From contig JAJTEE010000002.1 of the NCBI GenBank assembly GCA_021298215.1, positions 124,001-188,000 of the forward strand: a DNA stretch of 64,000 nucleotides. The letters are read 5' to 3'. The stretch comes from Alphaproteobacteria bacterium. GTDB taxonomy: Bacteria; Pseudomonadota; Alphaproteobacteria; Paracaedibacterales; CAITNM01. Position numbers and translations under genes: made by a program. Shown here piece after piece: positions 1,261 through 40,156 of this stretch; the first letter of the stretch is position 1; each line of letters starts with the position of its first letter. Under the pieces are notes generated by a model, which searched no databases, had not been told where the DNA came from, and worked only from the letters and a program-made list of their open reading frames with translations.

Positions 1261-2588
1261 AATCTTTCTTTAACTTTGTCACTTCCTATTAATGGTAATA
1301 GCATTTTCATTTCTGGACCATGATCCATTGCTGTTAAGGCTTGACGAAGAGGCATAAATAAATCTTTTCCCTTGCGTCCCGTTTTTTCTTTAATGCTTTG
1401 CGTCCAAATTCCCCATGTTTCTTCTGCCCATGAACCTGCTGGCAATAAATCTAGAGCTATTTTCAAGAAATCATTGTCTGAGCAGGTCCCTCTAATTTTA
1501 CCAAAAAATATACTCTCCCAAGGCTCAAGATCTTCAATTTTTTCAATATTATCATGCACTGCGCGCCAATGATTCTCACTAAACTTCTCAAAGCCATTTG
1601 TTTTTAAACGCTCTTGAATTTGCGAAAATGGCATTAAATGATAGAGCTTATGATTTAGTGCCCATAAATCTTTTTCGCTAAATCTTGGGGGAGTACGACT
1701 GAAAGTGGATAAGTCAAAAGAGCTCGCCAATTCATTTAAAGTTAATAAAGGTTCAATAGGTAGAGATGTTCCAAGTCTTGCTAATAAGCAGGCAATAGCC
1801 ATTGGCTCGACACCAGAATCACGCATTTGACCTAAGCTTAAACTGCCCAAACGTTTTGAAAGTGGAGCACCATCCTCATCCATCAATAGCGTTGTATGAG
1901 CAAACGTTACAGGAAAATCCTTTCCATCATTCACAGCTTTAAAGAGCTGAATTTGTGTTGCTGTATTTGTAACGTGGTCTTCACCACGAATAATATGACT
2001 AATAGAATAGTCAATATCGTCAATTACGGAGCATAAACTATAAAGAAAAACTCCATCAGCTCTGATTAAAACCGGATCACTAAGCTGTGCCCCATTATAT
2101 TTTACTTCACCACGTATTATATCTTGCCAAACAATTGGTTCATGATCTAATTTAAAGCGCCAATGTGGTTTTCGACCATCTTTTTCAAAAGCGTCCTTTT
2201 CAAGATCTGTCAAAAGAAGAGAAGATCTGTCATAAATAGGAGGCTGACCTTTCGCAAGCTGGCGTTTCCTCTTAAAATCAAGCTCTTCGGTAGTTTCATA
2301 ACACGGATACAATTTACCATTTTTAATCAGCTCTTCTTTAATCTGGTGATATCGTTCAAAACGCTCTGATTGACGGAATGTCTCGCTATATTTAACACCA
2401 AGCCATTCAAAATCTTGATAAATTGCTTTTTCATATTCAGGCTTTGAACGCTCTAGGTCAGTATCATCTATTCTTAAAATAAAATCTCCCCCATAACGTA
2501 ATGCATATAAATAATTAATTAGAGCTGCCCTAGCATTACCTATATGCAAATATCCGGTGGGAGAAGGAGCAAAACGAACACGAACCAT
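1248..2588 (-). CDS. gltX: Glutamate--tRNA ligase
   Basis: Class I aminoacyl-tRNA synthetase that charges tRNA-Glu, and possibly also tRNA-Gln for later amidation. The HIGH-type motif appears as HIGN at residues 15-18 in the context APSPTGYLHIGN. The KMSKS-type motif appears as LSKR near residue 245. The 446-aa length is usual. Many alphaproteobacteria carry two gltX genes, and the LSKRLGSLS version here resembles one of those two forms; which one cannot be decided from this window. Its 3' end overlaps the arginase start. Confidence 0.93.
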   Translation of the reverse strand: MVRVRFAPSPTGYLHIGNARAALINYLYALRYGGDFILRIDDTDLERSKPEYEKAIYQDFEWLGVKYSETFRQSERFERYHQIKEELIKNGKLYPCYETTEELDFKRKRQLAKGQPPIYDRSSLLLTDLEKDAFEKDGRKPHWRFKLDHEPIVWQDIIRGEVKYNGAQLSDPVLIRADGVFLYSLCSVIDDIDYSISHIIRGEDHVTNTATQIQLFKAVNDGKDFPVTFAHTTLLMDEDGAPLSKRLGSLSLGQMRDSGVEPMAIACLLARLGTSLPIEPLLTLNELASSFDLSTFSRTPPRFSEKDLWALNHKLYHLMPFSQIQERLKTNGFEKFSENHWRAVHDNIEKIEDLEPWESIFFGKIRGTCSDNDFLKIALDLLPAGSWAEETWGIWTQSIKEKTGRKGKDLFMPLRQALTAMDHGPEMKMLLPLIGSDKVKERLCAT

Positions 2589-9655: not shown

Positions 9656-11170
9656 GTGAACCGTAAAGTTGTTTTATGTATTCTTGATGGCTGGGGTATT
9701 AGCTCAGACAATTCTTATAATGGAATTAAAGCAGCAAAATATTGGCCGAGCATTTTAAGAAAATATCCTAACACTCAGCTACAGGCATCTGACCATTACG
9801 TTGGCCTCCCCGATGGACAAATGGGTAATAGCGAGGTAGGGCACATGACAATTGGTTTAGGGCGTGTCGTGATGCAAGATTTACCAAAAATTGATCATGC
9901 AATCGCTGAGAAAAACTTTGAACAAAATTCAATAGTTCAAAATGCTATTAAGCAACTAAAAAAAACTCAAAAGCCTTGCCATGTAATGGGTTTACTATCA
10001 CCAGGTGGCGTGCATTCGCACATGAATCATATGATTTATGTTGTAAAGCTTTTAAGTGAGGCCGGCATTTTTGTTCATGTACATGGATTCCTAGATGGCC
10101 GAGATACATCACCCAAAAGCGCTAAAAAGTATATAAAGCAATTTTTAGATGCCACTAAAAATTATCCGGATATTCATTTGTCCTCCTTATGTGGTCGTTA
10201 TTTTTCAATGGACCGTGATAACAGATGGGAGAGAACAGAGCTTGCTTATCAAGGAATTGTGCAGGCAAAAGCCCCAAGATTTTCCTCTCCTCTTGAAGCT
10301 ATTCAAAGTAATTATGAACAAAACATAACAGACGAATTCATCACGCCTATAATTTCAGAATCATACGTTGGCATGCAAGATGGTGATGGCCTTTGGATGA
10401 TTAATTTCCGATCAGATCGAGTTCGACAAATTTTACGCAGTTTATTGTCTGTTGATTTTGACAAATTCAAGAGAGAAAAAATTGTTCATTTTGGCACTAC
10501 TTTAGCGATGAATGAGTATGCTCTAGATCTTACGCCTTTGATCCCTTCAATATTCGAAAAAAGTACCGTCAATCAAAGCCTAGGCGAGATAATTTCAAAT
10601 TTGGGCTTAAAACAATTACGCATTGCAGAAACCGAGAAATATGCTCATGTGACATTCTTTTTAAACGGTGGCCAAGAATCTCCTTTTAAAAATGAGGAAC
10701 GTATCCTTATACCTTCTCCCGAAGTTTCCACATACGATTTAAAACCCGAGATGTCAGCTCAGGAAGTGACGCATGCCGTTACAAGCGCAATGGAACGAGA
10801 AGATCTTAGCTTAATTGTAGTCAATTATGCTAATGCAGATATGGTAGGACATACAGGAAACATAGAGGCTGTAGATCATGCAATAGAATGTATTGATGAA
10901 TGCTTAAAATCGCTAGAAGAAAAAGCTTTCAAAAATAACTGGGCACTTGTTGTAACCGCAGATCATGGTAATGCAGAATGCATGCGAGAAGAAGATGAGT
11001 TAACAATGCACACAGCACATACTTGCAATCCCGTGCCGTTTGTAATGATTAATTCAAATGAAACAGGATTCTTAAAACCTGGATCGCTTGCTGATATAGC
11101 TCCTACCATTTTAAAAATTATGAATATTGAACAGCCAAAAGAGATGACTGGAAAATCGCTATTATGCTGA
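9656..11170 (+). CDS. gpmI: 2,3-bisphosphoglycerate-independent phosphoglycerate mutase
   Basis: Interconverts 3- and 2-phosphoglycerate in glycolysis/gluconeogenesis with two manganese ions. Metal-site motifs are visible: CILDGWG near residues 8-14, the phosphoserine region GNSEVGHMTIG, GFLDGRDTSP, the basic substrate loop NFRSDRVRQ, NYANADMVGHTG, and VVTADHGNAE near the C-terminus. The 504-aa length is normal. Start is GTG. It overlaps the EnvC-like gene by 7 bp, the first of a gpmI-envC-ctpA run whose order is kept in many proteobacteria. Confidence 0.97.
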   Translation: MNRKVVLCILDGWGISSDNSYNGIKAAKYWPSILRKYPNTQLQASDHYVGLPDGQMGNSEVGHMTIGLGRVVMQDLPKIDHAIAEKNFEQNSIVQNAIKQLKKTQKPCHVMGLLSPGGVHSHMNHMIYVVKLLSEAGIFVHVHGFLDGRDTSPKSAKKYIKQFLDATKNYPDIHLSSLCGRYFSMDRDNRWERTELAYQGIVQAKAPRFSSPLEAIQSNYEQNITDEFITPIISESYVGMQDGDGLWMINFRSDRVRQILRSLLSVDFDKFKREKIVHFGTTLAMNEYALDLTPLIPSIFEKSTVNQSLGEIISNLGLKQLRIAETEKYAHVTFFLNGGQESPFKNEERILIPSPEVSTYDLKPEMSAQEVTHAVTSAMEREDLSLIVVNYANADMVGHTGNIEAVDHAIECIDECLKSLEEKAFKNNWALVVTADHGNAECMREEDELTMHTAHTCNPVPFVMINSNETGFLKPGSLADIAPTILKIMNIEQPKEMTGKSLLC

Positions 11171-15039: not shown

Positions 15040-17628
15040 ATGACTTTCCAAACTCCTATGATGAAGCAATATGCAGAAATTAAGGAACAGCATAAAGATT
15101 GCTTGCTGTTTTATCGCATGGGTGACTTCTATGAACTTTTTTTTGAAGATGCAATTCAAGCTTCTTCTGCTCTTGATATTGCTTTGACAAAAAGAGGACA
15201 AAATGCTGGAGAACCCATTCCTATGGCAGGAGTGCCTGTACATTCGCATGAAATGTATTTATTAAAGCTTATAGAAAAAGGATTTCGCGTTGCCATTTGT
15301 GAGCAAACAGAAACTCCTGAGCAAGCCAAAGAAAAAGGAAAAAAGGGGCCATTAGAGCGTGGTGTCGTGCGTATCGTTACGCCAGGAACACTTACTGAAG
15401 ATAGCTTATTAACACCAAAAAAAGCAAATTTTTTAGTTTCAGTAAGTCCTATGGATAAAAAAACCTTACATAGTGGAGTAGCGTGGGCGGATGTTTCAAC
15501 AGGAGCGTTTTACGTAACGAGCATAGTAACCGAATCATTAATTGATACCCTATCTCAACTAAACCCAGCCGAAATACTTATGGCTGAAAGCATTTGGAAA
15601 TCCCTTGATCCTGATATTTTTAATGAATTTAAAAAAATTATTCAGCCTCTGGCAGACACTCGTTTTAATTTGAATAATACACAACAAATACTTTTACAAT
15701 CGTTTAATGTAATCAGCCCCGAAGTATTAGGCCTCCACGAGAAAACTCTTGTCCAAGCCGCAGGTATGTTATGCGATTATTTATATTTAACTCAACAAGT
15801 ACAACTTCAACACTTGCGCGCCCCAAAGCTTATCAGTAAAAATAAAGCTGTTAAAGTTGATTCTCAATCTTGCAAAAATCTTGAAATCATACGCAGTCTT
15901 AAAGGCACTTTTGAAGGCTCTCTTCTTCATACAATAGATAATACCAAAACAGCTGCAGGCGGACGACTCCTTTTTGAATATTTAACCAACCCCACCACAG
16001 ATAAAGAAGGCCTTAATCAACGCTTAGATAAAATCAACTGGTTTAAAGGAAACAACCATGAAAGGTCTAACGCGCTGGATAATCTAAAGCATTGTCCTGA
16101 TATTGAGCGTTCTTTGATTCGAATAGCACTAGATAGAACCTTACCAAGAGATTTAAAAGCCATCTCTCAAGCCTTACGCGTAGCAAAAACTATAGATCAC
16201 CTTCTTGCTCAGCAATTCTTTTGGAAGCTAGATGTCCCCACAAAATTAATGCAACAATTAGAAAATACTCTCGAAGAAAATCTTCCTGCTGTTATGCATG
16301 ATGGTGGATTGATTAAAGCTAATGTTGATTCTGTGCTTGATGAACTACGCTATACTCGCGATCATGGACACCAGCAACTAAAACAGTTAGAGCAACGCTA
16401 TCAAGAAGAAACGAATATCCCAAATTTAAAAATTAAAACCAATAATTTAATTGGCTATTATATAGAGATCAGTAGCAGTCATCTTCATAAAGTTCCTCCA
16501 ACATTTTTTCACCGGCAAGCAATCAGTAATGGCGCTCGGTATATGACTCAAGAATTACATGACCTTGCTTCAAAACTTGAACATGCTGCAATGTCTACCA
16601 TTTCAAGAGAAATTGCGATCTTTAGAGAGTTATGCGCAGAAATTTTAAATCATAAAAATCAATTAGAAAATCTTGCCTCTCTGTTAGCAGAAATTGATGT
16701 AGCAAGTAGCATGGCAAATCTAGCTTCTGCCAAAAATTTTTGCCGTCCTATTTTCACAGACGCTCAGGTTTTAAACATTCAAAATGGTCGCCACCCTATT
16801 GTAGAAGCATTTACGTCAAACCCTTTTACTCCTAATAATTGCTATCTTTCTGATCAGCCCTTTGCGCTTTTAACTGGCCCAAACATGGCAGGGAAAAGTA
16901 CATATCTCAGGCAAAATGCATTAATTACTTGGATGGCACATTGCGGACTCTTTGTCCCTGCCTCTCACGCAGAAATTGGACTTGTGGACCAATTATTCTC
17001 TCGTATAGGAGCTGCCGATGATTTAGCAGCGGGTCGCTCTACTTTTATGGTGGAAATGGTAGAAACAGCAAGTATTCTGCACCAAGCAACTAGTCGTTCA
17101 TTTATTATTCTCGATGAAATTGGCCGCGGCACATCCACACAAGATGGATTAGCCATTGCAACAGCAGTTAGTGAACACCTTATTCATACCATCAATGCTC
17201 GCTGTATCTTTGCAACGCACTATCACGAATTAGTTGATCTCGCCAGTAATTATCCTGTTAAACTTTTAACAATGAAAATTGTCGAACACGATAACAACGT
17301 TGTTTTTTTGCATGAAGTTATTGAAGGCGCTGCCGACAAATCGTACGGCATTCACGTGGCTGAACTTGCTGGACTTCCGCAAAAAGTTATTGAAAGAGCC
17401 AAAGAATCTTTAAAGAAAGAAGCCTCCCAGCAAACAAAGGGCAAGCAATTAGCAGACATACCATGTGAAGAATCAAATTTGTTAAAATTTTTGCGAAGCA
17501 TTAAGCCCGATGATTTGTCACCACGGCAAGCCTTACAAGCGTTATATGAATTGAAGGAATATGCAAATAAAGGGCAAAATCGTAATACAAAACCTGATCA
17601 AGCAAAGGCTTCATTGTTTGGAAAATAA
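15040..17628 (+). CDS. mutS: DNA mismatch repair protein MutS
   Basis: Recognises mismatches and recruits MutL. The 862-aa length is full size. The N-terminal mismatch-binding motif is intact ([20 protein letters not shown], with the Phe-X-Glu type contact region). Connector, lever and clamp regions follow, then the ATPase with Walker [10 protein letters not shown] at residues 613-621, the Walker B region [12 protein letters not shown], and the signature histidine in FATHYHEL. The extreme C-terminus has the usual helix region. It is preceded by a long AT-rich divergent gap and followed by the DacA-like gene. Confidence 0.98.
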
Positions 17629-38671: not shown

Positions 38672-39136
38672 CTATGAACTTGCCTCTGTCAAAAGTCCTT
38701 GCGTTTGAATTTCGTCATCAAAATATTTAATAAAAAAGAACTTTGTCAGCTTGGGATTTATTGCGTTTTCTCTCACAAATTCTAGCTCAAAACCGCATTT
38801 CTTATAAAATTCCGATGCATTAAAAGCATTTGTTACTAAATTGATATTATTAAAGCCCTTCCCCCTAAAACGATTCTCAAGATCATCTAAAAGCTTTCTT
38901 CCGTAACCCTTTCCACGAAATTTTGAATCTACCCACATGTCTTGTATATAAATTTCTGCAAATGCAGTAAAAGCATTTAATACCCCAATCGTATTATTCT
39001 CATTATCCGATAGCACCAAAGCGAACTGTTTATAATTAACGTCAATCCCATGACTACTTTCATATTGTACAAAGCCTTCACGCATTTTCGCTTCGATTTC
39101 ATCGCTAAGCTTATCGACTAATTTTATTGCAGTCAT
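38672..39136 (-). CDS. GNAT-family N-acetyltransferase
   Basis: 154 aa, single GNAT domain. The acetyl-CoA binding loop is DSKFRGKGYGRKLLDDLE and the following segment has NAFNASEFYKKCGFELEF, both standard. Substrate unknown. Its start overlaps the stop of the split GrpB-GNAT gene by 4 bp, so it was probably the second gene of that operon. Confidence 0.88.
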   Translation of the reverse strand: MTAIKLVDKLSDEIEAKMREGFVQYESSHGIDVNYKQFALVLSDNENNTIGVLNAFTAFAEIYIQDMWVDSKFRGKGYGRKLLDDLENRFRGKGFNNINLVTNAFNASEFYKKCGFELEFVRENAINPKLTKFFFIKYFDDEIQTQGLLTEASS

Positions 39137-39753
39137 AATATCTTTCCTAACTGGATATCTTCAGAATCGCTTGGGTAGTTTCCAGGATCATTAAAAGGCA
39201 TATCTACATATTCAAAATGTCTATAAAACGTCTCAGCTTCAGGAGAAGCTTCTATATGTATGCTTTTTATACCTTGCATTCGCAGCCACTTTTCACACTG
39301 TTCCAATAAATAGCTTCCAAATCCTTTACCACGATTATCTTCATTTATAACAATAATGCGCATAGCAGCACGGCATTTTGGCCATTTTTGTAAATGTGCA
39401 TAACCAATAATTTCAGATCCTTTATACAATACGAAATGCACATGATCGGAGTGATTAAAAGTCCACGTATATGGATCAGCAATTGCCACCTTGTCAAAGA
39501 AATATTTTTGACGAAATATTTTCGCTGCCTCCCATTCTGTATAATGCGTACAATGCATTAGCCGTAATCTATCAAAGCCTAATTGCTGCAAAATTTTTCG
39601 AATAAAATCATTTTTTCCCAATGTGTAATGTGAAAACATTGGTGGTGCATCCTTATAGTGTTTTTGCTCATCAGAAAGTTTTTGTTTTAGCTGCTTTTCC
39701 CAATGTGTAATGTGAAAACATTGGTGGTGCATCCTTATAGTGTTTTTGCTCAT
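39133..39753 (-). pseudogene. GNAT half of a split GrpB-GNAT fusion gene
   Basis: The downstream fragment reads as a GNAT acetyltransferase with acetyl-CoA loop VINEDNRGKGFGSYLLEQCE and AETFYRHFEY. Its first 47 codons are an artefact: an out-of-frame copy, then the in-frame copy, of an 82-bp duplication. Removing one copy puts it in the same frame as the GrpB domain upstream, giving one protein of 313 aa, an architecture known for GrpB/GNAT bifunctional proteins. The fragment might still be translated from its own ATG, so residual GNAT activity is possible. Confidence 0.85.
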
Positions 39754-39776
39754 CAGAAAGTTTTTGTTTTAGCTGC
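39613..39776. repeat. Perfect 82-bp tandem duplication
   Basis: Positions 39613-39694 and 39695-39776 are identical over all 82 bases, and the match stops exactly at both ends. Since 82 is not a multiple of three, the second copy shifts the reading frame and splits the GrpB-GNAT gene. Perfect identity indicates a very recent event, or an assembly artefact. Confidence 0.97.
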
Positions 39777-40156
39777 ATATAATCAAGGCAAGCGTCTAAA
39801 TGCGAACGGAGATAATCGCGAAACATTAAATTCAGCTGAACTTCGGGGCTATCCGGCATATACATATGCAAATGAAATCCAGGCCTACTAAAATAAAAGC
39901 GAAAGGGAATATTGAGCTCACCCTTATATTCATAACCGAGAGATTCTAGTTGTTGAATTGAAGCAGATGGATTGCTAGATACAACAATTATATCAATAAT
40001 TGGCTTACCACTTAATCCAACTACAGATGTAGAACCTATATGGTGTATATCCATACAATTATCGCCTAAAGCTTTTTTAATAACAGCAGCCTCCTCTTCA
40101 AATTGAATTGGCCAGTCATTATCATAACGAGCAATTTCTATTAATTTAGATACCAT
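39671..40156 (-). pseudogene. GrpB half of a split GrpB-GNAT fusion gene
   Basis: The upstream fragment carries a complete GrpB (UPF0157, nucleotidyltransferase-like) domain: IEIARYDNDWPIQFEEEAAVI, IHHIGSTSVVGLSGKPIIDIIV with the GS and DxxV residues of the fold, and PGFHLHMYMP. It runs through the first duplicated copy, then ends 6 codons into the shifted frame. The ATG at 40156 is preferred to a GTG at 40174. The GrpB domain itself is intact and may fold alone. Divergent from uvrB. Confidence 0.85.

Follow-up and report, generated by a model that had tools for sequence, protein, structure and literature searches.

The stretch of DNA analysed here (64,000 nucleotides, referred to below as the window) contains an 82-bp segment that is present twice, head to tail, on the minus strand, where a GrpB-encoding half and a GNAT-encoding half of a gene meet (Table 1). 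In gene direction the unit reads GCAGCTAAAACAAAAACTTTCTGATGAGC...CATTGGGAAAA. Direct comparison of the two copies gave 0 differences, and Tandem Repeats Finder, run on the whole window, returned no array other than this segment (39613-39776, period 82, 2.0 copies, 100% match). The two adjacent identical copies described in an earlier note on this DNA were thus confirmed by both approaches. No other perfect tandem duplication with a unit of at least 10 bp is present in the window, and an exact tandem copy of 82 bp cannot have arisen by chance. Identity at a distance of 82 runs for exactly 82 bases and extends 0 bp beyond either end, therefore microhomology is absent at the copy ends.

Table 1. 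Positions of the duplicated unit, of the reading frames around it (window coordinates) and of the other perfect tandem duplications in the genome (contig coordinates)
Feature	Position	Strand	Remarks
Copy 1 of the 82-bp unit (gene direction), GCAGCTAAAAC...TTGGGAAAA	39695-39776	-	GrpB frame maintained
Copy 2 of the 82-bp unit, identical to copy 1	39613-39694	-	GNAT-half frame maintained
GrpB half, 161 aa, ending ...HYTLGKAAKTKTF and stop	39671-40156	-	Pfam GrpB PF04229, profile positions 2-150 of 159
GNAT half, longest ORF, 206 aa	39133-39753	-	Acetyltransf_1 and Acetyltransf_7
GNAT half, likelier product (inferred start), 168 aa from ATG 39639	39133-39639	-	TAAGGA ~10 nt upstream
Second, separate GNAT gene	38672-39136	-	ATG overlaps the fusion-gene TGA by 4 bp (ATGA)
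49-bp perfect tandem duplication	G000 contig C36 (L116) 11067-11165		Splits purH into ORFs of 357 and 189 aa
36-bp perfect tandem duplication	G000 contig C27 (L107) 17154-17225		Duplicates the ribosome-binding site and initial codons of a Tim44-like gene
33-bp perfect tandem duplication	G000 contig C4 (L073) 1836-1901		Between ribosomal protein L28-like and dUTPase-like genes

Reading frames and domains

With both copies in place, a TGA at 39673-39671 ends the GrpB frame after 161 aa, and the GNAT part is read in a different frame. The 5' part of the longest GNAT ORF crosses copy 1 in a non-native frame, and the stop codon of the GNAT half is unaltered by the duplication. When one copy is removed, 942 nt remain that are divisible by 3 and open, and they encode 313 aa on the minus strand from ATG 40156 to TGA 39133. 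The earlier note had predicted that deleting one copy fuses GrpB and GNAT into a 313-aa frame, and its arithmetic is exact. The GrpB-GNAT fusion protein of Holosporales relatives was defined as one ORF of about 310-318 aa with GrpB followed by GNAT; the genomes of 25 relatives and the one-copy frame have this form, whereas the assembled sequence does not.

Both domain assignments are above the curated Pfam cut-offs. The GrpB half scores 129.1 bits against a cut-off of 25.5 for PF04229, and the GNAT part scores 45.7 bits for Acetyltransf_1 (cut-off 20.7) and 44.6 bits for Acetyltransf_7 (cut-off 27). The N-terminal half resembles the GrpB family and 2NRK, the solved structure of a hypothetical GrpB protein, with 129 bits for the family and an E value of 5e-24 for 2NRK. 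However, 2NRK is a stand-alone GrpB protein, whereas the GrpB domains of the relatives are fused to GNAT and the one encoded here is truncated by 9-10 residues. The CoaE-GrpB dephospho-CoA kinase (6N39; NCBIfam NF002879) likewise has GrpB within a fusion protein, but its partner is an N-terminal kinase and the partner here is a C-terminal GNAT domain. The literature that was searched contained no description of a GrpB-GNAT protein.

The GrpB half is missing only its last helix, which is conserved, can be seen when the protein is aligned with 2NRK, and is now carried by the GNAT half. The earlier account of the split was right about the frame break; it overlooked an internal GNAT start in copy 2 that has a good Shine-Dalgarno sequence. 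This start, ATG 39639, is located 32 nt past the GrpB stop, and the TAAGGA preceding it has a predicted pairing energy of -6.0 kcal/mol with the 16S tail. This ATG may be used, and the 168-aa product would span the whole GNAT domain. Given such a start the split need not silence both domains, and both may still be produced. As far as the evidence goes, the 168-aa product would be a chance outcome of conserved codons (Tyr-Lys-Asp ... Met). Since the second GNAT gene starts inside the stop codon of the fusion gene, it is probably coupled translationally to the GNAT half. The second GNAT gene is the same neighbour in G004 and G001, and the ATGA overlap is likewise seen in G004.

The fused gene among relatives

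Of 58 genomes, 38 (the query genome counted) have a match to the one-copy 313-aa protein. A full-length GrpB-GNAT protein, counted as an uninterrupted ORF of at least 305 aa, is encoded in the genomes of 25 relatives. The junction corresponds to residues 140-165 of the joined protein ('...KHYKDAPPMFSHYTLGKNDFIRKILQQ...'), where members of the genus align without gaps; more distant relatives have merely small length differences, which lie ahead of the junction. None of the aligned relatives has a second copy at the junction. Because 25 relatives carry one uninterrupted fusion ORF without a second copy, the fused one-copy gene is ancestral and the two-copy state is derived in the present genome, in line with the earlier proposal. 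In view of these fused relatives, a natural state with GrpB and GNAT as separate genes was rejected, and the two halves were found as neighbouring genes in no relative. Programmed frameshifting was also set aside; the relatives have no frame break at the junction and therefore there is nothing conserved to programme. In two genomes, G029 (L013) and G026 (L019), the open GrpB-GNAT frame extends to 612 and 652 aa, respectively, and a longer protein or an upstream fusion is possible. The nearest named relative found is the metagenome-assembled 'Candidatus Finniella inopinata', whose genus comprises endosymbionts of cercozoans and ciliates (PMC11909080).

The fusion gene is absent from three of the 11 genomes of the same genus. 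No match to the one-copy protein was found in G010, and G003 has just a remote GNAT match. In G005 the order of the neighbours is the same (pheT, p183, second GNAT, uvrB) and a NUDIX-like ORF fills the slot of the fusion gene; this ORF is located at L045 5426-5749, between uvrB and the second GNAT gene. Within the genus the fusion adjoins uvrB in G009, G004, G002 and G008 and is located elsewhere in G001 and G006. In another genus, the GrpB domain of G038 contains an independent frameshift at about residue 46 (L056 2674-2820). From these absences, the NUDIX replacement and the G038 frameshift it follows that loss of the fusion gene is not unusual, and the gene is judged accessory or dispensable from its distribution. 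Searching four proteins with defence-system models gave 0 matches.

Assembly error or mutation

The second copy could have been introduced by the assembly if contig pieces overlapping by 82 bp were joined unmerged, and the true genome would then have one copy and an intact 313-aa gene. The earlier note regarded an artefact as the main alternative and it has kept that place: the draft is contaminated, it contains further perfect duplications, and purH is split on contig C36. The genome is a 36-contig draft of 1.53 Mb with 98.18% completeness and 2.44% estimated contamination. A scan that covered nearly all of it found four perfect tandem duplications with a unit of at least 30 bp (33, 36, 49 and 82 bp). 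The 49-bp duplication splits the housekeeping gene purH on C36, while purH is whole on the sister contig C28 (L108); the two contigs share about 84-88% identity, with ~88% in the purH region. No purH was found in the other 10 genomes of the genus, and for this reason C36 is considered a contaminant; C36 and C28 both derive from another organism, of which they represent two related strains. That organism otherwise makes purines and has an intact purD next to the broken purH, which raises the suspicion of assembly error there and, by extension, at the 82-bp copy. The purH split has the appearance of an artefact produced by the same assembly. The exact identity of the copies and the zero microhomology also point to an artefact, as zero microhomology would result if two overlapping contigs had been joined end to end. 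In ~0.52 Mb of unmasked sequence from three relatives 0 perfect duplications of this kind (unit at least 30 bp) were found, but this control is too short and the 4-versus-0 comparison is not significant (chance ~0.3).

Against an artefact, the unit lengths of the four duplications vary, which a fixed k-mer overlap would not do, and the junction is without Ns. Short de Bruijn assemblies are also more prone to merge repeats of this type into one than to generate them. Of the four duplications, those of 36 and 33 bp are in harmless places, the pattern expected if real mutations had passed through selection. The contig with the 36-bp duplication at the start of the Tim44-like gene belongs to the present organism, and the segment is single-copy in eight relatives of the same genus; this derived duplication means that such events do occur in this assembly at harmless places. 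Counting against a real duplication, a Ku gene, for blunt end-joining, was not found, so non-homologous end-joining was set aside as the source of a microhomology-free duplication. Weighing both sides, we place the probability that the duplication is present in the organism itself at somewhat over one half, and that of an artefact at somewhat under two fifths.

Fate of the two-domain gene

The reading favoured here, with a probability of roughly 0.5, is that a recent frame-breaking 82-bp duplication has turned an accessory GrpB-GNAT gene into an incipient pseudogene. This reading is conditional on the duplication being real, and the most likely explanation is an ordinary one: either a dispensable gene has recently had its frame broken by a duplication, or the assembly is in error. 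The ancestral gene encoded two domains, a GrpB nucleotidyltransferase-like domain followed by an N-acetyltransferase, and a recent head-to-tail duplication of 82 bp would have occurred inside the interdomain linker. As 82 is not a multiple of 3, the GrpB frame would be lost in copy 2, where ribosomes would stop 22 nt into the copy. The full-length protein would no longer be made, its function would be lost, and the gene would be an incipient pseudogene in the present lineage. As a by-product a nearly complete GrpB domain would remain, and the GNAT domain could come from ATG 39639.

The same arrangement could act as a reversible phase-variation switch through gain and loss of the 82-bp copy, as the earlier note had suggested. 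Perfect direct repeats of such size are good substrates for deletion, these repeats lie in a coding frame, and recA is present. The copies are identical, and their length of 82 bp (82 mod 3 = 1) shifts the frame; loss of one copy, easy in principle, would restore the gene. A precedent exists in the pneumococcal capsule genes cap3A, cap8E/wchA and tts, in which reversible frame-shifting tandem duplications are reported (Waite et al. 2001, 2003, as cited in PMC4022640 and PMC4243769). In those genes, as here, the ORF is interrupted by a perfect tandem duplication within it and would be reopened if one copy were lost. However, the capsule genes are reported to revert in culture and capsule variants are selected, whereas the present case is one draft assembly and an accessory enzyme gene. 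A switch needs a return step and both forms in one population. The copy ends have no homology that could regenerate a lost duplication, and the two-copy or a mixed state was seen in no relative. The product is presumably a cytosolic enzyme and not a surface structure, and the gene is accessory and has been repeatedly lost or broken. The switch is therefore left as very improbable and the earlier suggestion is not upheld.

Gene fission, in which both halves are made and work as two proteins, each with its own copy of the linker, is improbable as well. It would be consistent with the extent of the Pfam profile covered by the GrpB half (Table 1) and with the ATG and upstream TAAGGA past the GrpB stop, from which the whole GNAT domain would be covered. 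However, the last GrpB helix has been displaced onto the GNAT half, and no relative has the halves side by side. The Shine-Dalgarno sequence derives from the conserved Tyr-Lys-Asp codons and therefore need not have been selected. In a further form of this proposal, which is very improbable, the frame-shifting linker duplication would have made two separately translated proteins from a two-domain enzyme in one step, because it supplies each half with a copy of the linker, together with an ATG and a ribosome-binding site that could be used.

If the duplication is real, the incipient pseudogene would be an accessory gene that has only just been broken and has not yet decayed further, in a genus of small-genome Alphaproteobacteria with protist endosymbionts among its relatives; it would also be a clear case of tandem duplication without microhomology. 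If it is an artefact, it warns against giving a biological meaning to duplications that split genes in this assembly. General understanding is unchanged under either reading.

The earlier note had also described the event as recent, and this agrees with the state of the gene. The break is considered recent because the copies are identical, the one-copy frame is otherwise free of lesions, with no further stop or shift, and the joined protein differs at 3 of 63 near-invariant positions, similar to the 1-4 differences in intact orthologues of the genus. Because of this similarity, the possibility that the gene was decaying before the duplication was rejected. The start region reads GGAGATTTTTATG in three relatives of the genus and AAAGATTTTTATG in the present genome, a weak hint of an older change.
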